Positions 36,908-49,854 of a stretch of DNA of 64,000 bases are shown piece after piece. Numbering within the stretch: the stretch's first letter is position 1; every line of letters starts with the position of its first letter. The DNA is from Betaproteobacteria bacterium (lineage in GTDB: Bacteria > Pseudomonadota > Gammaproteobacteria > Burkholderiales > UBA6910): the NCBI GenBank assembly GCA_016183615.1, contig JACPEG010000024.1, positions 1 through 64,000 on the forward strand, written 5' to 3'. The notes beneath the pieces were generated by a model that ran no database searches, had not been told where the DNA came from, and saw nothing but the letters and a program-made list of their open reading frames with translations. The translations under genes were made by a program, and so were the position numbers.

Positions 36908-37720
36908 ATGCCGGTCGACCACTACGAGAATTTCCCAGTCGCATCGTTCCTGCTGCCGGCGCGGCTGCGCCATCCGGTCACCCTGATTTACCACTTCGCC
37001 CGCCGCGCCGACGACTTCGCGGACGAAGGCGAGCTGCCGGACGCCCGCCGCCTCGAGCTGCTGGATGGATTCCGGGAGCAATTGAGGCAGATCGAGCGCG
37101 GCGAGGCGCCGCGGGAAGACCTGTTCCGGGAACTCGCGCCGATCATCGATGAACACGGCCTGCCGATCCAGCTGTTCCATGATCTCCTGGATGCCTTCAC
37201 CCAGGACGTGACCAAGAAGCGCTACGCGGACTTTGGCGAAGTGATCCACTATTGCCGGCGCTCGGCGAATCCCGTCGGCCGGCTGCTGCTGCACCTCTAT
37301 GGCGCCACCGAGCCCCGCAACCTCGCCTACTCGGACGGCGTCTGCTCGAGCCTGCAGATCATCAATTTCCTGCAGGATATCGAGATCGATTACCGCAAGG
37401 GCCGCATCTACCTGCCCCAGGACGAGATGGCCCGGTACCGGATCGGGGAGGCCCAGATCGCCAGGGGAGACGCCGGAGGAACCTGGCGCCCGTTCATCCT
37501 GTTCCAGATCGAGCGGGCCAGGAAAATGCTTCAATCCGGCGCGCCGCTCGGGAAAATCCTGAAGGGCCGCGTCGGGCTGGAAACGCGCATGATCATCCTG
37601 GGAGGCGAGACCATCCTGCGGAAGCTTCATGAGACAGGCGGCGACGTGTTCCGGCATCGGCCCGTGCTCAAGCCCCTGGACTGGCCCTTTATGCTGTACC
37701 GGGCGGTGCGCGCCAGGTAA
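36908..37720 (+). CDS. hpnC: Squalene synthase-family HpnC (hydroxysqualene synthase)
   Basis: A 270-residue trans-isoprenyl diphosphate synthase-fold enzyme starting VDHYENFPVASFLLPARLR, typical of HpnC. It has an FARRADDFADE first acidic motif and NFLQDIEIDYRKGRIYLP second motif. In the HpnCDE route HpnC turns presqualene diphosphate into hydroxysqualene. I chose the ATG at 36908 over a TTG at 36869 because the family begins here; no clear RBS. First gene of hpnCDE. Confidence 0.93.
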   Translation: MPVDHYENFPVASFLLPARLRHPVTLIYHFARRADDFADEGELPDARRLELLDGFREQLRQIERGEAPREDLFRELAPIIDEHGLPIQLFHDLLDAFTQDVTKKRYADFGEVIHYCRRSANPVGRLLLHLYGATEPRNLAYSDGVCSSLQIINFLQDIEIDYRKGRIYLPQDEMARYRIGEAQIARGDAGGTWRPFILFQIERARKMLQSGAPLGKILKGRVGLETRMIILGGETILRKLHETGGDVFRHRPVLKPLDWPFMLYRAVRAR

Positions 37721-37728
37721 GGGTTTAA

Positions 37729-37768
37729 TCCATCACCGTTCACTGTTCCCTGTTCACTGTTCAGTCTT
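37729..37768. repeat. GTTCACTGTTCCCTGTTCAC words between hpnC and hpnD
   Basis: The gap of 56 bases is mostly a run of CGTTCACTGTTCCCTGTTCA-type words, the same family as at 23670 and 27918. It also takes the place where the hpnD RBS should be, so hpnD may be poorly or indirectly translated. Confidence 0.78.
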
Positions 37769-37776
37769 TGCCCTTG

Positions 37777-38613
37777 ATGACACCGGACCAATACTGCCAG
37801 GACAAGGCCGCCAAGAGCGGCTCCAGCTTCTATTACAGCTTCCTGTTCCTGCCGCCGGAGCGGCGCCGGGCCATCACCGCGCTCTATGCCTTCTGCCGGG
37901 AAGTAGACGACGTGGTGGACGAATGCCACGACCCGGCGCTCGCCCGCACCAAGCTCGCCTGGTGGCGCACTGAAATCGCATCCGTGTACCAGGGTGACCC
38001 CCAGCATCCCGTCGCCCGTGCGCTAAAGGCTGTAGTAACCCAGTTCAACCTGCCCCAGGAGCAGCTCCAGGAAATCATCGACGGCATGGAGATGGACCTC
38101 ACCCGCAACCGCTACGCCGATTTCAAGGAGCTGCAGCTCTATTGCTACCGTGTGGCGGCGGTGGTGGGGCTGCTCTCGGCGGAGATCTTCGGCTACCGGG
38201 ACCGCAAGACCCTGAAATACGCCCACGATCTGGGGCTCGCCTTTCAGCTCACCAACATCGTGCGCGACGTGGGCGAGGACGCGCGCCGGGACCGCATCTA
38301 TATCCCGCAGGACGAGCTTGCCCGCTTCGGCGTGTCCAACGCCGACATCCTCCACGGCCGGGAAACCGACAACTTCCGCAAACTGATGGAATTCCAGATC
38401 GAGCGCGCCCGGGGCCTCTACGATCAGGCGCTCGCCGAACTGCCCCCGGAAGACCGGCTGGCCCAGCGCCCCGGGCTCATCATGGCGGCCATCTACCGCA
38501 CGCTGCTCGGTGAAATCCGGCGCGACGGGTGCCGGGTCCTGAAACAGCGCGTTTCCCTCACGCCGATCCGCAAGCTGTGGATCGCCTACCGGACGTGGGC
38601 ATTCGGCGGGTGA
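37777..38613 (+). CDS. hpnD: Presqualene diphosphate synthase HpnD
   Basis: A 278-residue enzyme that joins two farnesyl diphosphates into presqualene diphosphate. It starts MTPDQYCQDKAAKSGSSFYY, with acidic motifs CREVDDVVDE and NIVRDVGEDARRDRIYIP and the YCYRVAAVVG segment. I chose the ATG at 37777; a TTG three codons earlier is possible. hpnE follows after 4 bases. The presence of both HpnC and HpnD, with HpnE, fits the three-enzyme bacterial squalene route. Confidence 0.95.
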   Translation: MTPDQYCQDKAAKSGSSFYYSFLFLPPERRRAITALYAFCREVDDVVDECHDPALARTKLAWWRTEIASVYQGDPQHPVARALKAVVTQFNLPQEQLQEIIDGMEMDLTRNRYADFKELQLYCYRVAAVVGLLSAEIFGYRDRKTLKYAHDLGLAFQLTNIVRDVGEDARRDRIYIPQDELARFGVSNADILHGRETDNFRKLMEFQIERARGLYDQALAELPPEDRLAQRPGLIMAAIYRTLLGEIRRDGCRVLKQRVSLTPIRKLWIAYRTWAFGG

Positions 38614-38617
38614 AGCG

Positions 38618-39928
38618 ATGCCCGTGAGCGATCCCCGGATCGCGGTCATCGGCGGCGGCTACGCCGGCTTTGCGGCGGCCGTGACCCTCGCCGAGCGGGG
38701 CGTTCCCGTGTCCGTGTTCGAGGGCGCCACGACCCTAGGCGGCCGGGCGCGGCGGGTGGAGCACGGGGGGCTAGCCCTCGACAACGGCCTGCACCTGCTC
38801 ATGGGCTGCTACTCGGAAACCCTGCGGCTCATCCGCCTGGTGGGCGGGAAACAGCATGAAGAACGCGCCCTGGTGCGCCTGCCGCTGGAACTACGGATCG
38901 GCGGTGCATTTCGATTTCGCACCTGGAAACTGCCCTCGCCCCTGCACCTGATGCTGGGATTGTTGACGGCCCGGGGGCTGGGCCGCGGTGACATCCTCGC
39001 CGCGATGCGATTCATGCTGGAGGCGCGGGGCAGCGGCTTTCGCCTGCGCCAGGACATGACGGTGACGGATCTTCTCGACCGCCGCCGGCAGCCGGAGAAT
39101 GCCCGGCGCTACCTGTGGGAAGCCATCTGCACCGCCGCCCTCAACACGCCGCCCGGGGAGGCCTCGGCCCAGGTTTTCCTGAACGTGCTGCGGGACAGCC
39201 TGAACGGCACCGCCACGGATTGCGATCTGCTGTTCGCCCGCGTGGACCTGAGCGCGCTGCTTCCCGAGCCGGCCACCGATTTCATAGATAAAAATGGCGG
39301 CGAGGTGATCACCGGAGCCCGGGTCACCCGCATCGAGCGTATCGCCACCGGATTCCGGATTCACTCGACCCGGAGCACGGATGAATTCACCCACGTGATT
39401 TGCGCCTGCGATCCCGCCCGGGCCGGGCATCTGCTCGAAGAGCACAGCGAACTGCGGCGCATCGCCGACGCCCTGTCCCATTACCGCTTCGAGCCGATTC
39501 ACTCCATTTACCTGCAATACCCGGAACAGGTTCGGCTGCCTGCCCCCATGTTCGGGCTGGGTGACCCGCTCAAACAGTGGGCCTTCGACCGGGAGGCGCT
39601 TTGCAACCAGAAGGGACTGATCGGGGTCGTCATCAGCGCCAGCGGCCCCCACGAGACCATGGACAGGAACGAGCTGGCGCGCACGGCGCATCGGGAACTC
39701 GTTCGCTGCCTGGGCCCGCTTCCCGATCCGCGCTGGCACCTGGTGATCGCCGAGAAGCGCGCCACCTTCGCCTGTTCCCCCAACCTGCCGCGCCCCGACC
39801 AGGCGACCGCGGTCCCGGGTCTTTTCCTGGCCGGCGATTACACCGCGGGCGACTACCCGGCCACCCTCGAAGGCGCGGTGCGAAGCGGGATACAATGCGC
39901 CCGCCACATTCTCGAATCGAAACGCTGA
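38618..39928 (+). CDS. hpnE: Hydroxysqualene dehydroxylase HpnE
   Basis: A 436-residue FAD-dependent amine-oxidase-type flavoprotein that reduces hydroxysqualene to squalene. The dinucleotide motif AVIGGGYAGFAAAVTLAERG is at residues 8-27, followed by GGRARRVEHGGLALDNGLHLLMG. The C-terminal FLAGDYTAGDYPATLEGAVRSG is the FAD-binding end. Last of hpnCDE. No cyclase (shc) is within the window, so I cannot say whether squalene goes to hopanoids here. Confidence 0.94.
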   Translation: MPVSDPRIAVIGGGYAGFAAAVTLAERGVPVSVFEGATTLGGRARRVEHGGLALDNGLHLLMGCYSETLRLIRLVGGKQHEERALVRLPLELRIGGAFRFRTWKLPSPLHLMLGLLTARGLGRGDILAAMRFMLEARGSGFRLRQDMTVTDLLDRRRQPENARRYLWEAICTAALNTPPGEASAQVFLNVLRDSLNGTATDCDLLFARVDLSALLPEPATDFIDKNGGEVITGARVTRIERIATGFRIHSTRSTDEFTHVICACDPARAGHLLEEHSELRRIADALSHYRFEPIHSIYLQYPEQVRLPAPMFGLGDPLKQWAFDREALCNQKGLIGVVISASGPHETMDRNELARTAHRELVRCLGPLPDPRWHLVIAEKRATFACSPNLPRPDQATAVPGLFLAGDYTAGDYPATLEGAVRSGIQCARHILESKR

Positions 39929-43821: not shown

Positions 43822-43906
43822 GTTGGGCTTCGCTCGCGAAGCCCAACAGGAGCATTCCCGTTGTTCGCGGTTTTTTGTTGGGCATCAATGCCCAACCTAC
43901 GGGGCT
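43818..43906. repeat. Two REP elements after the CBS gene
   Basis: GTAGGTTGGGCTTCGCTCGC starts at 43818, its TAG being the stop of the CBS gene. An inverted TGGGCATCAATGCCCAACC element ends at 43905. They lie between two convergent genes. Confidence 0.9.
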
Positions 43907-43927: not shown

Positions 43928-45088
43928 TCAGAACCGGCTCCACAGCCAATATCGCTCGTAGGCCACCTTGCCCCAGTGCAGCAGCCGGCTCGGCGGTTTG
44001 AGATTGATCTGCGGTCCCGCGTCGGCGTAGAAATTTCCGGCGCCGAATCCGGCGCGCCCGTCGCCGGACTCGAGGAAGCATTCGCCGTCGCCCGTGAAAA
44101 CCTGCGGCGCTCCGCGGCCGGTGACGGCGCGGGCGATATTTGCCGCCACCACCTCCGCCTCGCCGTGGGCCAGCACGCCCGCCTTGGGCAGCGGTTTGCC
44201 GATGGCGGTGAGCATGATCCCGGCGACATCGCCGATGGCATACACACCGGGATACTTGGTTTCCAGCGTGCCGCGGTCCACCGGCACCCAACCGCTCTCC
44301 CCGCACAGCCCGGAGTCCCGCACCGCCTGGGGCGCCACGTGGGGCGGGATGTAGGCGAGCAGATCGAAATCCGCGCTGGCGCCGTTGGCGAAGCTGATGC
44401 GGCGCGCGGCCGGATCCACCGACGTGACCGCGTGGTTCGGGTGATAGCCGATGCCCTTGGCCTCGATCATCTGGCGCAGGGCGGCGGAGACGGCGGGGCC
44501 GGCAACCGGCATCGGACCCGGCTCGGCGGTGTAGAGATCCACCTTCACCGCAGCGCCGAGGCCGCGCCGGCGGCAGTCGTAATCCAGCAGCATCGCCGCC
44601 TCGTTGGGCGCGCCGGGGCACTTGAAGGGCATGGCGCTCACCAGCACGACGATGCGCCCCTTGTTCAGTTTGAGCCGGGCCTCACGTAGGCTCTCGGCCC
44701 CCGCCAGAGTGTAGAAGTTGTGTCCGGCTTCCGCCAGTCCCGGCACCTTTTCGGGCGCCAAGTCGGCGCCCAGGGCGATCACCAGGAAATCTCCCTTCAG
44801 CTCCCGGCCGTTCACCCGCGCCGAGCGCGCGGCCGGGTCGATGGCCTCCACGGTCCCCCGCACCACCTCGATGCCGCGATTCGCCAGGGCCGAGATGGGA
44901 CGGGAAATCGCCTGTGCCTCGCGGTCTCCCGTCATCAGCCAGAGCAGGGACGGTGCGAAAATATGGGTGGAATCCTTCTCGACCACCACCACCCGGTGCT
45001 CCGAAGGAAGGGTCTTGCGCAGGCGCTCGGCCAGCACGACGCCGCCGATGCCGGCGCCCAGTATGACTACCGTTTTGCCTTGTGCCAC
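43928..45088 (-). CDS. FAD-dependent oxidoreductase, sulfide:quinone oxidoreductase-like
   Basis: A 386-residue two-dinucleotide-domain flavoprotein. FAD motif VVILGAGIGGVVLAERLRK at the start; later GVYAIGDVAGIMLTAIGKPLPKAG, the second FAD contact of the SQR/NDH-2 group; the C-terminus GKVAYERYWLWSRF is membrane-binding-like. Cys are present at FKCPGAPNE, DYDCRRR, SGLCGES and GECFLE, but the full three-Cys set of classical SQR cannot be confirmed by eye. Last gene of a seven-gene operon with sulfur-handling proteins, so oxidation of a sulfur species with quinone as acceptor is my inference. Confidence 0.82.
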   Translation of the reverse strand: MAQGKTVVILGAGIGGVVLAERLRKTLPSEHRVVVVEKDSTHIFAPSLLWLMTGDREAQAISRPISALANRGIEVVRGTVEAIDPAARSARVNGRELKGDFLVIALGADLAPEKVPGLAEAGHNFYTLAGAESLREARLKLNKGRIVVLVSAMPFKCPGAPNEAAMLLDYDCRRRGLGAAVKVDLYTAEPGPMPVAGPAVSAALRQMIEAKGIGYHPNHAVTSVDPAARRISFANGASADFDLLAYIPPHVAPQAVRDSGLCGESGWVPVDRGTLETKYPGVYAIGDVAGIMLTAIGKPLPKAGVLAHGEAEVVAANIARAVTGRGAPQVFTGDGECFLESGDGRAGFGAGNFYADAGPQINLKPPSRLLHWGKVAYERYWLWSRF

Positions 45089-45114
45089 GGAATGTTCTCC
45101 CTGTCTGATTGATC

Positions 45115-45342
45115 CTATAACCCGATCTTGGTGGCCAAGACGCCGCGCTCGCCCACATGTTCGAGGATTTTCGCCGAGCTGATCGCCTCAGGGTCATGGG
45201 CGATGACCAGCAGATGAGGATGCTCCGCATTGAAATGCGCCGAGAGAACGCCCTTCAAGCCGCCCACGTCCGCCTCGAGCTTTCTTCGTTCACCGACGGA
45301 CAGGTCCGGATGTACGTGAATCAGGAAATCGACGATGTTCAT
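45115..45342 (-). CDS. 75-residue protein, ferredoxin-like (HMA-type) fold without metal Cys
   Basis: MNIVDFLIHVHPDLSVGERRKLEADVGGLKGVLSA... suggests beta-alpha-beta-beta-alpha-beta, as in heavy-metal-associated domains. However, there is no CxxC and not one Cys; instead there are four His (HVHP, HFNAEHPH). GGAGG lies 5 bases before the ATG. It sits between the MFS and SQR-like genes with 26-31 base gaps, so it is co-transcribed. Function unknown; it may be a small partner of the flavoprotein. Confidence 0.75.
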   Translation of the reverse strand: MNIVDFLIHVHPDLSVGERRKLEADVGGLKGVLSAHFNAEHPHLLVIAHDPEAISSAKILEHVGERGVLATKIGL

Positions 45343-45373
45343 ATTGGCCTCCTGCCTCGCAATATCGGCGGCC

Positions 45374-46156
45374 CTACGAATCCGCCGTGGCCGGATTCAA
45401 CCCGGGATGCGTCTCTTCCCCCAGCCACCACAGGATCGCACCCGATAGCAGCATTGCCACAAACACGAGCCAGAACCCCGCTTCGATCGCACCGCTTGCT
45501 TTGGCTACCAGCCCCACCGCCAGCGCGCCGATGCCATAGCCCAGATCGCGCCAGAAGCGATAGATGCCGATGGCAAGCGCAATCGCCACCACCCCGAAAA
45601 CAAAGAGCCCCATGCGCGCCCCGTAGGCCTTGGCCATATGGCCGGTGACCACTCCCGCAACCGCTACCCCCAGGTAACCGAAGAATTCATTCAACCCGAT
45701 GGTGAGGCCCCGTTGATCGGACCGAGTGATATCAAGCTTGGCGGTCTGGGTCATGGACCATGTGAACCCCTGGTTGACTCCCAGCATCACCGTGGCGGCG
45801 ATAATCCAGTTCCAACTCGGTGCATAGAGAATCATGAAGGGGATCGGAACCGCAGATAACCATCCGATCAGCAAGACCTGTTTGCGGCCGATGCGCTCCG
45901 AGAGCCGGCCAGCCAGGAAGTTAAGCACCCCTTTTACGAAGCCGAAGGCCACGACAAAAGCCATGAGCAGGAGGAACGATCCCCTGGGTACGCCGAATTC
46001 GGATTCCGCGAGGGCCGGGATCACGTTGCGCATCATGCCAATGGTCAGTCCCACCAGCAGCACCTGGATGAGCTGGTGCACGAACTGGGACAGGTTATGG
46101 CGGATACCGTGGTTGTAGCCGCCGCAAGGTTCATTCAGGAAATTCGGAGTGCTCAT
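45374..46156 (-). CDS. MFS transporter with a large in-frame internal deletion
   Basis: 260 residues, compared with about 400 for the family. Helices 1-6 are recognisable (residues 31-200), with the MFS loop GRLSERIGRKQ after helix 2. After residue about 198 the sequence passes directly to RFWRDLGYGIGALAVGL, which in full-length relatives stands before helix 11 (from memory), then one last helix. That leaves about eight helices; roughly helices 7-10 are missing, with the frame kept. The junction lies near 45553-45571. It may be inactive, or work as a shortened dimer. Middle of the seven-gene operon. Confidence 0.78.
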   Translation of the reverse strand: MSTPNFLNEPCGGYNHGIRHNLSQFVHQLIQVLLVGLTIGMMRNVIPALAESEFGVPRGSFLLLMAFVVAFGFVKGVLNFLAGRLSERIGRKQVLLIGWLSAVPIPFMILYAPSWNWIIAATVMLGVNQGFTWSMTQTAKLDITRSDQRGLTIGLNEFFGYLGVAVAGVVTGHMAKAYGARMGLFVFGVVAIALAIGIYRFWRDLGYGIGALAVGLVAKASGAIEAGFWLVFVAMLLSGAILWWLGEETHPGLNPATADS

Positions 46157-46159
46157 TTC

Positions 46160-46843
46160 TCAACCACGCGCATCTTTTTTCAGAGTGACAAAATGAAGCC
46201 GCACGTCATGGTCCCGGGTGCAGGATTCCAGCTCTGTCATTTCCTCGAATTCGATAATGCTGAACCGCCCCAGAACGTCCCTGAACTCTGAATCCGGGAG
46301 GTAAAGGACTTTATGGCCCGGTCTGAAGGAAAGCTCGTGGGCCATCCCGCTGCCTTGGGCGGAATGGGCCCTGCTCGGATCGAGCGGATTTCGCACACTC
46401 AGGCACGCGAGTCCCCCTGGCTTCAATACACGGTGAATTGCGGTGATACCCTGTTCCAATTTCTCCCGCGAAAGAAGCAGATGCAGCGTGCGGTGTGAAT
46501 ACACCGCGTCGAAGCTGGAATCGCCAAAACCGAGTTCAGCGATATTGTCCAGCACGTACGTCACTCTGCGACTGCGGCCGTTTGCGTGCCATTGGCGAGC
46601 AAGCTCGAGCGCTCCCTCTGCAAAGTCCACCGCGGTAACGTTAAAACCCTCATCGGCCATGTACTTGGCGTCCCGCCCGTAGCCGCACCCCAGGACCAAC
46701 ACCTCCCGCGCGCCCTGGGACCTGAAGCGGGACACGGCCGCCCGGGCACATGGGCTCGGCTCCGCTCCCCAGATGAACCCTTCCAACCGGTATCTTCTGG
46801 ACCAGAAGTCAGCGACTTCCTGAAGGTCATGGTCGATCCGCAT
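46160..46843 (-). CDS. Class I SAM-dependent methyltransferase (TehB/thiopurine-type layout)
   Basis: A 227-residue methyltransferase. Motif I is EVLVLGCGYGRDAKYMADEGFNVTAVDF, then ELGFGDSSFDAVYSHRTLHLL and HRVLKPGGLACLSVRNP. A small-molecule substrate is likely; in this sulfur context a thiol, sulfide or metalloid is possible (inference). The ATG at 46843 is chosen because the upstream frame is a shadow of the DsrE gene. It precedes the MFS gene by 3 bases. Confidence 0.86.
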   Translation of the reverse strand: MRIDHDLQEVADFWSRRYRLEGFIWGAEPSPCARAAVSRFRSQGAREVLVLGCGYGRDAKYMADEGFNVTAVDFAEGALELARQWHANGRSRRVTYVLDNIAELGFGDSSFDAVYSHRTLHLLLSREKLEQGITAIHRVLKPGGLACLSVRNPLDPSRAHSAQGSGMAHELSFRPGHKVLYLPDSEFRDVLGRFSIIEFEEMTELESCTRDHDVRLHFVTLKKDARG

Positions 46844-46878
46844 TGCCGCGCCGCTTCCTTTCGTATTTACGCTGCCCC

Positions 46879-47229
46879 TCAAAATACGATCACTTTGTCG
46901 GCCCAGCTGGTCCAGGCCGTCAGCTCGGCCATGGTGCTGCGGCGCGTTCCTTCGACGAGTTCCGAGTCGGCCACGCCGCGCGCGTCCATGCAGGTGCCGC
47001 ACACGCCCACCGCGCCGCCGGCCCGGATCACCTTGTTGAGCATGAGCTGGATGTTGTAGAACCCCTCGGGCACCGTCTGCCCGGACTTGGCGCAGCTTGC
47101 CGCATCTCCGATGAGGAACACGCGGACTTCTTCGTGCTCCGCCTTGGAAAGCGATCCCGCCAGGCGCAGCCCGTTGTAGCTGCGCTCCGTGCCATAGGGC
47201 GGGTCGTTGAGTATGAGCAAAAATTTCAC
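46879..47229 (-). CDS. DsrE-family sulfur-relay protein
   Basis: A 116-residue DsrE/F-like protein starting MKFLLILNDPPYGTERSYNGLRLAGSL, with Cys46, Cys77 and Cys80; the last two lie in GVCGTCMDARG, the position of the reactive Cys in this family. Such proteins carry persulfide sulfur between enzymes. It lies between the VTT-rhodanese and the methyltransferase genes in the operon. Confidence 0.9.
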   Translation of the reverse strand: MKFLLILNDPPYGTERSYNGLRLAGSLSKAEHEEVRVFLIGDAASCAKSGQTVPEGFYNIQLMLNKVIRAGGAVGVCGTCMDARGVADSELVEGTRRSTMAELTAWTSWADKVIVF

Positions 47230-47267
47230 TGGTATTTCCTCCCTTGTTGGGTACCGCTGCTACGTTC

Positions 47268-48242
47268 CTACGCGCCCCGCTCGACCGGAAGCGCGTTTTT
47301 CTGCCACGCGATCATCCCGCCCCGGACGATCCTGAGGCGGGCAAAGCCGTGGGCATGCAGAAGGCGCGCCGCTTGCGCCGAGCGCTTGTCGGTGCGGCAG
47401 ACGATGCACACGGGCTGCTCGCGCTGCGCCTGAAGTTCCCCGAAGCGTTCCGGCAGTGAGGCCAGGGGGATGTTGGATGCCCCGGGAATGTGGCCGGTCT
47501 CGCCTGCGAATTCCTCCGGACTGCGGACGTCCAGCACCAGCACCTTGTCGCCCGCGTCGAGTTGCCGCTTGAGTTCCCCGACATCCATCCCGGGCGTGCC
47601 CCTCAGACGCCGGACCAGACGGGGAACAAAGGCAACCGCGGCGAGGAGCGCCAGGGCAATGAGGCCATTGCGGACGGCGCCTTCGCCTCCGGCAACGGCC
47701 TCGCGCCCGGCGAAGCCCAGGTAGGTGTAGGCGAAGGCTCCCGGCAGCATGCACAGGTACGAGGTCACCACGTATTGGGCAATCGGGATGCGGGTGAGGC
47801 CGAAGGCATAGTTCACCAAATTGAAGGGAAACAGCGGAACCAGCCGCACAAATGCGACGAAGCGCCAACCCTCGCCGTCGATCCCCTCGATGAGTTGGCC
47901 GAGCCGGCCACCGGTTCTGGCGCGCACCCATTCGGAAGCGGCGTAACGGGCGACCAGGAAAGCCAGCGCCGCGCCCAGGGTCGCGCCCGTCAGGCTGTAG
48001 AAGGTGCCGGGCACCGGCCCGAACAGGGCGCCGCCCAGCAGCGTGAGCACCGAGCCCGGAATGAACAGCACGGTGGCCACGGCGTAAGCGCCCATGAAAT
48101 ACAGGGGAGCGAGGATTCCGGCGTCCGCCAGGTACTGTTCGAGGTGACGGGCGTCGAGGCCCTCGCGATGGTAACCGGCGACGCCGATGGCAATCGCCAG
48201 GGCCGCGATCAGCAGTGCGCGCAGGAGCTTATCGGATTTCAT
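47268..48242 (-). CDS. VTT (TVP38/DedA-like) membrane protein fused to a rhodanese domain
   Basis: A 324-residue fusion. Residues 1 to about 210 are a VTT/TVP38 membrane domain (GSVLTLLGGALFGPVPGTFYS ... FVRLVPLFPFNLVNYAFGLT ... PGAFAYTYLG). Residues about 218-324 are a rhodanese domain (VLVLDVRSPEEFAGETGHIPGASNIPL) with catalytic Cys282 in the loop CRTDKRS and a second Cys at 279. It links sulfur transfer to the membrane. The ATG at 48242 overlaps the end of the desaturase gene by 14 bases. Confidence 0.9.
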   Translation of the reverse strand: MKSDKLLRALLIAALAIAIGVAGYHREGLDARHLEQYLADAGILAPLYFMGAYAVATVLFIPGSVLTLLGGALFGPVPGTFYSLTGATLGAALAFLVARYAASEWVRARTGGRLGQLIEGIDGEGWRFVAFVRLVPLFPFNLVNYAFGLTRIPIAQYVVTSYLCMLPGAFAYTYLGFAGREAVAGGEGAVRNGLIALALLAAVAFVPRLVRRLRGTPGMDVGELKRQLDAGDKVLVLDVRSPEEFAGETGHIPGASNIPLASLPERFGELQAQREQPVCIVCRTDKRSAQAARLLHAHGFARLRIVRGGMIAWQKNALPVERGA

Positions 48243-49092
48243 GGCCCGGCTCGAAGCGGCGGCTGATGGAATAGGCCTCGCGCGTCCCCTGGAACGGGAT
48301 CGCCAACATCCCGGGGAGCGTCGCGCACTGCCGCTCGTCGCGGAAACCGCGCACGCCGATCGCCATGCCCTCATGACCCAGGCGGGGGGCGGCCGTGTAG
48401 GTTCCGAACAGCCGGTCCCACAGGGACAGGTTGAAACCGAAGTTGGTGTTCGATTCCGCCTCCTCGATGGAGTGATGAACCCGGTGCATGTCGGGGGTGA
48501 CCAGCACCCAGCGCAGCCGGCGATCCAGCGCCCCCGCCAGGCGCACATTGCCGTGGTTGAACATGGCAGTGCCATTGAGCACCACCTCGAACAGCACCAC
48601 CGCCAGCACCGGCGCGCCGAGCACAACGATGACCGCGAACTTGATGAGCATCGAGAGCACGATCTCGATGGGGTGGAAGCGGGCCCCGGTGGTCACATCG
48701 AAATCCAGGTCCGCGTGGTGCATGCGGTGCAGCCGCCACAGCACCGGCACCGCGTGGAACATCACGTGCTGCAGGTAAATGGCGAAGTCCATGGCCACAA
48801 AGGAGAGCGCCACCGCGGCCCAGAACGGCGCCTGCAGGTAGTTGAAGATGCCCCAGCCGTGGCTCGCGGCGAACGCCGCCACGCCGACGGCGGCGGCGGG
48901 GAACAGCAGCCGGACCACGACGCTGTTCAGCACCACCACGCCGAGATTGTTGAGCCAGCGCTTGGGTTTCGAAACGCTGAGGCGCCGCCGCGGGGCGAGA
49001 ATTTCCCACAGGGCCATGAGGGCGAAGATGCCGAAGAATGCGCCCAGGCGGATGGCAACCTCGTGGGCCTGCACGAATGCATTGATGTCCAT
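48229..49092 (-). CDS. Sterol desaturase/fatty-acid hydroxylase-type di-iron membrane enzyme
   Basis: A 287-residue membrane protein with the eight-His di-iron pattern: HVMFH, HRMHH and HRVHH plus further His (FHPIE). Several helices precede and separate the boxes. The family hydroxylates or desaturates lipids with O2. The ATG at 49092 is used because the family's N-terminal helix starts there; a longer frame reaches 49152 but would run into the operator. First gene of the operon controlled by the divergent ArsR-rhodanese protein. Confidence 0.88.
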   Translation of the reverse strand: MDINAFVQAHEVAIRLGAFFGIFALMALWEILAPRRRLSVSKPKRWLNNLGVVVLNSVVVRLLFPAAAVGVAAFAASHGWGIFNYLQAPFWAAVALSFVAMDFAIYLQHVMFHAVPVLWRLHRMHHADLDFDVTTGARFHPIEIVLSMLIKFAVIVVLGAPVLAVVLFEVVLNGTAMFNHGNVRLAGALDRRLRWVLVTPDMHRVHHSIEEAESNTNFGFNLSLWDRLFGTYTAAPRLGHEGMAIGVRGFRDERQCATLPGMLAIPFQGTREAYSISRRFEPGHEIR

Positions 49093-49152
49093 GACCGGTG
49101 CTCCTAAACTGGCGTGAGCTTGCCGGGATGTCCCCGGTGGGCTATTATTCAA

Positions 49153-49176
49153 CTATTCAATAGTTCTATTGAATAG
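49153..49176. promoter_or_regulatory. Perfect 24-bp palindromic operator between the operon and its ArsR-type regulator
   Basis: CTATTCAATAG, TT, CTATTGAATAG: two 11-base arms that are exact reverse complements. Additional half-sites flank it (CTATTATTCAA at 49142, GAGAATAG at 49179). It lies 18 bases before the regulator ATG and 60 bases before the desaturase ATG, the expected place for an ArsR/SmtB repressor that controls itself and the divergent operon. Confidence 0.88.
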
Positions 49177-49194
49177 TAGAGAATAGGCGGTCCC

Positions 49195-49854
49195 ATGTCA
49201 AGAGGCGGTTTCAAGCGCGAGGTATTTGGCCAGTTGGCCCGGGTCGGCAAGGCCCTGGCAAGCGGCAACCGGCTGGAATTGCTGGAGTTTGTGGCCCAGG
49301 GTCCCAGGAGCGTGGATGAACTGGCGAAGATGGCAGGGCTCTCGGTCGCCAATACCTCCCAGCACCTCCAGGAACTGCGCCAGGCCGGGCTGGTCACCGC
49401 CCGCAAGGAGGGATTGCGGGTGTATTACCAGCTGGCGGGCGATGACGTGACCCGGCTGCTGGATGCCTTGCGGCGGGTCGGCGAGACCCGCATCGCCGAG
49501 GTGGAGCGGCTGGTGAATTCCTATCTCGCGACCCGGGACGGGTTGGAGCCGATTCCCGCCAAGGAGTTGCTGGAACGGGCCCGCAAGGGCCTGGTTACGG
49601 TGCTGGACGTGCGGCCCCGGGAAGAGTTCGATGCGGGCCATCTCCCCGGCGCCATCAACATCCCGTTGACCGACCTCGAAGGGCGCTTGGGGAAACTGCC
49701 CAGGAGCAAGGAGGTGGTCGCCTACTGCCGGGGACCCTATTGCCTGCTCTCCTACGAGGCCGTCGAGCGCCTGCGCAAGAAGGGCCTCAAGGCCCGGCGC
49801 CTGGAGGACGGATTCCCCGAGTGGAAGGCGGCCGGGTTGCCGGTCGAGAATTAG
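49195..49854 (+). CDS. ArsR-family regulator fused to a rhodanese domain
   Basis: A 219-residue fusion. Residues about 10-100 are a winged helix (LELLEFVAQGPRSVDELAKMAGLSVANTSQHLQELRQAGLV). Residues about 122-219 are a rhodanese domain (VTVLDVRPREEFDAGHLPGAINIPL) with active loop CRGPYC. The only two cysteines of the protein are Cys178 and Cys183 of that loop, so sulfur sensing, if any, must use the rhodanese site and not the Cys pair used by BigR/SqrR. It diverges from the sulfur operon across the palindrome. Confidence 0.93.
   Translation: MSRGGFKREVFGQLARVGKALASGNRLELLEFVAQGPRSVDELAKMAGLSVANTSQHLQELRQAGLVTARKEGLRVYYQLAGDDVTRLLDALRRVGETRIAEVERLVNSYLATRDGLEPIPAKELLERARKGLVTVLDVRPREEFDAGHLPGAINIPLTDLEGRLGKLPRSKEVVAYCRGPYCLLSYEAVERLRKKGLKARRLEDGFPEWKAAGLPVEN

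Follow-up and report, generated by a model that had tools for sequence, protein, structure and literature searches.

What does a regulator with a sulfur-transferase domain control, when the gene that faces it encodes a membrane hydroxylase? We have analyzed this question for a divergently transcribed locus in a stretch of 64,000 nucleotides (the window) from a Betaproteobacteria bacterium of the Burkholderiales (assembly GCA_016183615.1, contig JACPEG010000024.1, positions 1 to 64,000). Here the gene for an ArsR-rhodanese fusion regulator diverges, across a palindrome, from seven genes, the first of which encodes a membrane protein of the fatty acid hydroxylase superfamily (FAH). The regulator family follows sulfur oxidation among genomes and the FAH family follows arsenosugar genes. 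A switch linked to sulfur oxidation is thus placed on the conserved control site of an arsenosugar-linked FAH, which gives the locus the look of a connection, so far undescribed, between sulfur metabolism and arsenic metabolism. On the fuller reading, that a rhodanese-based repressor responsive to sulfane sulfur controls an O2-dependent diiron enzyme of arsenosugar/arsenolipid metabolism together with sulfur-handling proteins, our judgment is evenly balanced. The features of the locus, in window coordinates, are the following.

49195..49854, plus strand: ArsR-rhodanese fusion regulator, 219 amino acids (Pfam HTH_5 and Rhodanese; NCBIfam; 124-member alignment)
49152..49177, no strand: predicted palindromic operator, 26 bp (footprint of the regulator family)
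49173..49201, minus strand: promoter-like site for the seven-gene operon, TTGACA-17-TACTAT (consensus match only; -10 overlaps the operator)
49120..49148, plus strand: promoter-like site for the regulator gene, TTGCCG-17-TATTAT (consensus match only; -10 just upstream of the operator)
48229..49092, minus strand: FAH, membrane protein of an arsenosugar-associated family (PF04116; complete His boxes)
47268..48242, minus strand: VTT (TVP38/DedA-like) membrane domain fused to rhodanese (Pfam VTT and Rhodanese; C278/C281)
46879..47229, minus strand: DsrE/TusD-like sulfurtransferase (Pfam DsrE; C77/C80)
46160..46843, minus strand: S-adenosylmethionine (SAM)-dependent methyltransferase, distantly MduS-like (Pfam Methyltransf_25/11; GC content at third codon positions, GC3, 0.68)
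45374..46156, minus strand: MFS transporter, internally deleted in frame (Pfam MFS_1; alignment with orthologues)
45115..45342, minus strand: 75-amino-acid protein, predicted HMA-like ferredoxin fold (AlphaFold2, Foldseek)
43928..45088, minus strand: SQR-like flavoprotein, nearest NCBIfam type III SQR (Pfam Pyr_redox_2)

On the minus strand, no gap between neighbouring genes of the seven exceeds 38 bases, and VTT-rhodanese overlaps FAH. An initial annotation, made from the sequence alone, had described eight genes here, seven of them tightly packed and diverging from the ArsR-rhodanese gene; all were found in place, and its domain calls agree with the Pfam matches. Consensus matching over the 6.3-kb region gave only two promoter-like sites, on opposite strands and flanking the palindrome; no promoter-like site of a separate operon gene, which that annotation would have taken as a refutation, was found among them. 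We take the locus to be controlled by a local repressor as one divergently transcribed unit.

Conservation of the regulator, its operator and FAH

When public genomes were scanned for proteins similar to the regulator, 80 named regulator loci emerged; they belong to Beta-, Gamma-, Alpha- and Deltaproteobacteria and to a small number of further phyla, and include loci of tubeworm and clam symbionts and of free-living sulfur oxidisers. In about 40 of 97 loci FAH and the regulator are immediate divergent neighbours, and VTT-rhodanese often comes next; other loci carry either DsrE with SQR or an MFS gene of full length together with an MBL-fold protein and TauE. Since these loci had been chosen by their regulator, the count was repeated on an even sample of 274 genomes from the class that includes this genome, with a gap below 300 bp as the criterion for a divergent pair; a codon-based caller supplied the genes for locus comparison. 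FAH is present in 128 of the 274 genomes and the regulator in 78. There are 47 divergent regulator-FAH pairs, the window's among them, in 45 genomes (gap 65 to 228 bp, median 122), or roughly one in six of those sampled. VTT-rhodanese follows FAH in most regulator-paired loci. The 13 class-wide DsrE matches include 10 by ArsR-rhodanese and two more by FAH, and the SQR family was found in only 6 genomes, in all 6 beside the regulator. By these comparisons the conserved unit consists of ArsR-rhodanese, operator and FAH, usually followed by VTT-rhodanese and sometimes by DsrE and SQR. The initial annotation had treated all seven genes as one conserved unit; the synteny search upheld the divergent regulator-FAH core but not the full set, and we reject the seven-gene unit. 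The methyltransferase has no counterpart in any related locus examined and is a local addition in this genome, the MFS gene carries a deletion, and full-length MFS genes occur mainly in regulator loci without a divergent FAH.

The palindrome, ACTATTCAATAG-TT-CTATTGAATAGT, occupies 49152-49177. It had first been recorded as a perfect 24-bp palindrome at 49153; the palindrome is real, but it measures 26 bp and only its arms are perfect, the two central bases being unpaired. Its score was matched by 0 of 40 shuffles of the 190 bases around the regulator start. The conserved core, TATTCAA-N8-TTGAATA, lies at 49154-49175. With the window's own site as query, in sequences that span phyla, 67 of 95 regulator genes proved to have an operator with at most 3 mismatches upstream (190 bases around each start), against 1.2 expected from shuffled sequences; most of these operators lie 40 to 46 bases ahead of the start codon. 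A half-site spacing of 8 accounts for these 67 regulators, while every other spacing tried gave 17 or fewer. The core is matched exactly in 19 loci, the window included. Within the window's own genome it occurs at 0-1 mismatches as a single site, and a second such site, the mark of a wider regulon, was sought there and not found; at up to 3 mismatches the genome has 22 operator-like sites versus 7 control sites.

Of 48 loci in which FAH is paired with the regulator, 44 have the operator ahead of FAH; for paired loci that also have ArsS the figure is 14 of 15. Two loci (L139 and L142) keep the operator ahead of FAH with the regulator gene elsewhere in the genome. It was not found at the examined FAH loci of regulator-less genomes, and arsenosugar operons that contain FAH and no adjacent regulator lack it, except for one case with 3 mismatches. 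Because the operator accompanies FAH in paired and detached loci alike and is missing where the regulator is missing, FAH is very probably the true target of the ArsR-rhodanese regulator. The proposal that the genes are regulated from the palindrome thus gains support, the palindrome being a phylogenetic footprint of the regulator family. The minus-strand -10 overlaps the palindrome and the plus-strand -10 abuts it; a bound repressor would therefore cover both divergent start regions, as far as consensus promoter matches can indicate.

Sulfur and arsenosugar associations

The regulator has an ArsR/SmtB winged helix (HTH_5, 2.4e-12; NF033788 above cut-off). Two cysteines of its rhodanese domain, C178 and C183, held in a YCRGPYC-type motif, are invariant in 124 members, while every other cysteine position is filled in at most 8% of them. 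The ArsR domain of the window's regulator has no cysteine, and none is conserved there among the 124 homologues. SQR, DsrE, TauE, MBL-fold and rhodanese genes adjoin the regulator across loci. In the 274 genomes the regulator is associated with SoxB (odds ratio (OR) 10.7 overall; 7.6 in FAH-negative genomes), and it shows no significant association with ArsS in FAH-negative genomes (OR 1.4, p 0.52). These patterns favour the sulfur-type signal that the initial annotation had proposed; the signal sensed would be sulfane sulfur.

Ten histidines are invariant in 95 FAH sequences (H109/H113, H122/H125/H126, H203/H206/H207, H140 and H180), and the diiron boxes HX3H, HX2HH and HX2HH are complete, which places FAH in the PF04116 superfamily. 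ArsS is present in 111 of 128 genomes with FAH versus 27 of 146 without it (OR 28.8, p 9e-32). The association holds in regulator-negative genomes (OR 23.5, p 1.7e-19) and in SoxB-negative genomes (OR 17.7), whereas that of FAH with SoxB in regulator-negative genomes is not significant (OR 1.4, p 0.31). This double dissociation, of FAH and regulator with respect to ArsS and SoxB, is still seen when the sample is reduced to about one genome per family. The lipid hydroxylation formerly assigned to a sulfur unit is thus retained as far as the hydroxylase superfamily is concerned and loses its tie to sulfur, since the family tracks ArsS and not SoxB.

Gene neighbourhoods point the same way. In 30 sampled genomes no more than 12.2 kb separates FAH from ArsS, and the two genes share a strand in 30 of 30. 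In many loci genes for ArsS (TIGR04167), ArsM and glycosyltransferases of TIGR04283 and TIGR04282 follow FAH and VTT, and FAH stands inside operons having ArsS plus, variously, ArsM and these glycosyltransferases. Arsenosugar operons that contain FAH have the regulator in some cases (L179, L180, L182, L184, L186 and L187) and lack it in others, such as L185 and L188-L194. ArsS proximity requires 15 changes on the FAH tree, some branches of which are long; it is therefore a recurrent feature and not a single arrangement passed down by descent.

From these comparisons we propose that ArsR-rhodanese would act at TATTCAA-N8-TTGAATA, over both start regions, to control its own gene and the FAH operon; this step is well supported by comparative evidence, DNA binding itself being predicted. 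Sulfane sulfur would load the rhodanese cysteines C178/C183, by persulfidation or a polysulfide bridge, and the repressor would be released. If release goes through these cysteines, then the protein is a sulfur sensor whose receiving site is the fused rhodanese and not the ArsR domain. The comparison also supports a place for FAH in arsenosugar/arsenolipid metabolism, where it would be an O2-dependent diiron enzyme acting on the lipid or alkyl part of the arsenosugar product; its putative substrate is an arsenosugar-linked lipid. The VTT protein may move or arrange a membrane lipid as the partner of FAH, and VTT-rhodanese, DsrE and SQR may handle accompanying sulfide or sulfane sulfur, for example thio-arsenicals arising where sulfide meets arsenic. 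We offer only tentatively, as a rather doubtful extension, the idea that sulfur oxidisers switch arsenosugar-phospholipid synthesis by a sensor of new layout (ArsR plus a sulfur-receiving rhodanese), with FAH as the missing O2-dependent arsenolipid step and possibly with thio-arsenosugar lipids as products, their sulfur coming from VTT-rhodanese and DsrE.

Other genes of the operon and its surroundings

The MFS protein has 260 amino acids, versus about 405-460 in its orthologues; an alignment with four full-length orthologues (72-75% identical) locates the loss of about 183 residues internally and in frame. This rules out a functional full-length transporter of 12 helices, and the gene is probably broken and non-functional. 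An intact copy was not found elsewhere in its own genome. In other genomes, MFS orthologues that adjoin a regulator of this family have their full length, and an MBL-fold gene is often their neighbour. GC3 of the segment 45115-46843, which holds the methyltransferase, MFS and 75-amino-acid genes, is 0.68-0.76 versus 0.82-0.89 in the remaining operon, which suggests a different history for this segment. The 75-amino-acid protein is predicted to adopt an HMA-type ferredoxin fold: its AlphaFold2 model (predicted local distance difference test, pLDDT, 85.6) matches ATP7B and other HMA domains in Foldseek. It has no CxxC metal motif and carries a conserved HP motif in the first loop, and its homologues adjoin VTT-rhodanese in other loci.

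Other genes recur beside VTT-rhodanese. One encodes a 790-amino-acid protein in which a NapH-like ferredoxin membrane part is joined to a GltD-like flavoprotein; it is seen at L045 (4722-7094) and at similar loci, and is often accompanied by a multihaem cytochrome. In L163 and L166-L171 VTT-rhodanese is followed by a cytochrome-like protein (about 410 amino acids, several CxxCH) and a MerA-like flavoprotein, and in several of these then by ArsS. Within the window the squalene synthesis genes hpnC-hpnD-hpnE of the hopanoid pathway lie about 4 kb from the operon (36908-39928). Two close inverted repeats of the type GTAGGTTGGGC...GCCCAAC, 3' of the last gene (43822-43895), look like a dispersed intergenic repeat rather than a terminator.

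Competing explanations and known systems

Several observations weigh against a sulfur-controlled arsenosugar enzyme. Most FAH-regulator loci, the window's included, have no ArsS within 12 kb, and FAH genes with neither regulator nor ArsS as neighbours sit in unrelated contexts. Besides SoxB, the window's own genome contains two ArsS loci (L176 and L177; G000 C30:30785-31696 and C22:10039-10950) with differing sets of arsenosugar partner genes. These lie on other contigs and carry no operator; a joint function here would therefore be in trans. The co-occurrence statistics are corrected for relatedness only by the thinning to about one genome per family, Foldseek with the FAH model gave no solved structure at E<0.001, and a sequence search for relatives of solved structure likewise gave none. 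Arsenic could also bind the same C178/C183 pair. Part of this evidence suits the view of the initial annotation, by which FAH modifies ordinary membrane lipids under sulfide or persulfide stress, and under which its link with ArsS would be incidental; the distance to ArsS at most loci, the association of the regulator with SoxB, and the DsrE, SQR, TauE, NifS-like and rhodanese genes at many loci are all in its favour. We nonetheless consider it unlikely, if worth serious attention: FAH follows ArsS and not SoxB once the regulator is held out, regulator-less genomes have FAH inside arsenosugar operons, and proximity to ArsS has recurred on the FAH tree.

Slightly less probable again is a unit that senses arsenic, in which C178/C183 would bind As(III), a methylated arsenical or thioarsenate to control arsenical processing, with the sulfur genes serving thioarsenic chemistry. 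The two close-set cysteines (CRGPYC) and the linkage of FAH to arsenosugar genes would suit it, as would a report that sulfide or arsenite induces a cyanobacterial SQR operon (Nagy et al. 2014, as cited in PMC6620896), but in FAH-negative genomes the regulator associates with SoxB rather than ArsS, and FAH-free regulator loci hold MBL-fold (Blh-like), TauE, SQR and rhodanese genes. That the locus is an ordinary operon for sulfide or persulfide detoxification, with FAH and the other non-sulfur genes as chance neighbours, appears improbable; the SQR and DsrE clades are indeed always or nearly always near the regulator, yet FAH is its direct divergent partner in 47 cases of the even sample and still has the operator in front of it where the two genes lie apart. 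Least probable of all is a decaying locus that has no current function in this genome. The truncated MFS protein and the lower GC3 of its segment would be expected of decay, but the other genes are all intact with conserved catalytic residues, and the operator is exact.

To our knowledge, it is largely unsettled how bacteria build arsenosugar lipids once ArsM and ArsS have acted, and no regulator joining this pathway to sulfur is known to us. A full-text search confined to open-access papers found no description of ArsR-rhodanese regulators, their operator or the FAH-arsenosugar link. The conserved divergon supplies an exact DNA site and three candidates: FAH as the enzyme, VTT-rhodanese as a membrane partner, and a sensor whose sensing domain is unusual. 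Sulfide and arsenic may co-occur in the habitats of the symbiotic and free-living sulfur oxidisers that have regulator loci.

Among known systems, the ornithine-lipid hydroxylase OlsE (NF052566) shares the PF04116 superfamily with FAH and can be aligned with it over 246 residues; FAH reaches 108.7 bits, below the equivalog cut-off of 475, its gene context differs, and an identity as OlsE is rejected. The SQR-like protein shares the FAD fold of type III SQR (NF049943) and scores 236 bits versus the 525 cut-off for that selenoprotein subtype. Its C157 and C337 align with the redox cysteine pair of A. ferrooxidans SQR, which we take to be C160 and C356, while the third cysteine of that enzyme is absent; its activity is predicted only. 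FAH and VTT genes occur inside many arsenosugar biosynthesis clusters (ArsM, radical SAM ArsS, TIGR04283/TIGR04282). The window differs in that it has neither ArsS nor arsenosugar glycosyltransferases and is not itself such a cluster, ArsS and its partners being on other contigs; its VTT domain is fused to rhodanese and a sulfur-type regulator would be in charge.

The ArsR repressors known to respond to sulfane sulfur (BigR, SqrR, sHdrR, SoxR and YgaV) have two cysteines within the ArsR domain (PMC12423496). The initial annotation had compared the regulator with BigR and SqrR, and with respect to the ArsR winged helix the likeness holds. It would extend to local control of sqr/pdo/rhodanese/TauE-type genes, to an inverted repeat, here of predicted binding, that adjoins sulfur-handling genes (sqr/DsrE/TauE/rhodanese), and presumably to persulfide chemistry. 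It fails at the cysteine pair, which is missing from the ArsR domain; the regulator is therefore not filed with BigR/SqrR, though it would work like that class. What sets it apart is that its conserved cysteines are found only in the fused rhodanese domain, and that its predicted targets include the conserved FAH gene.

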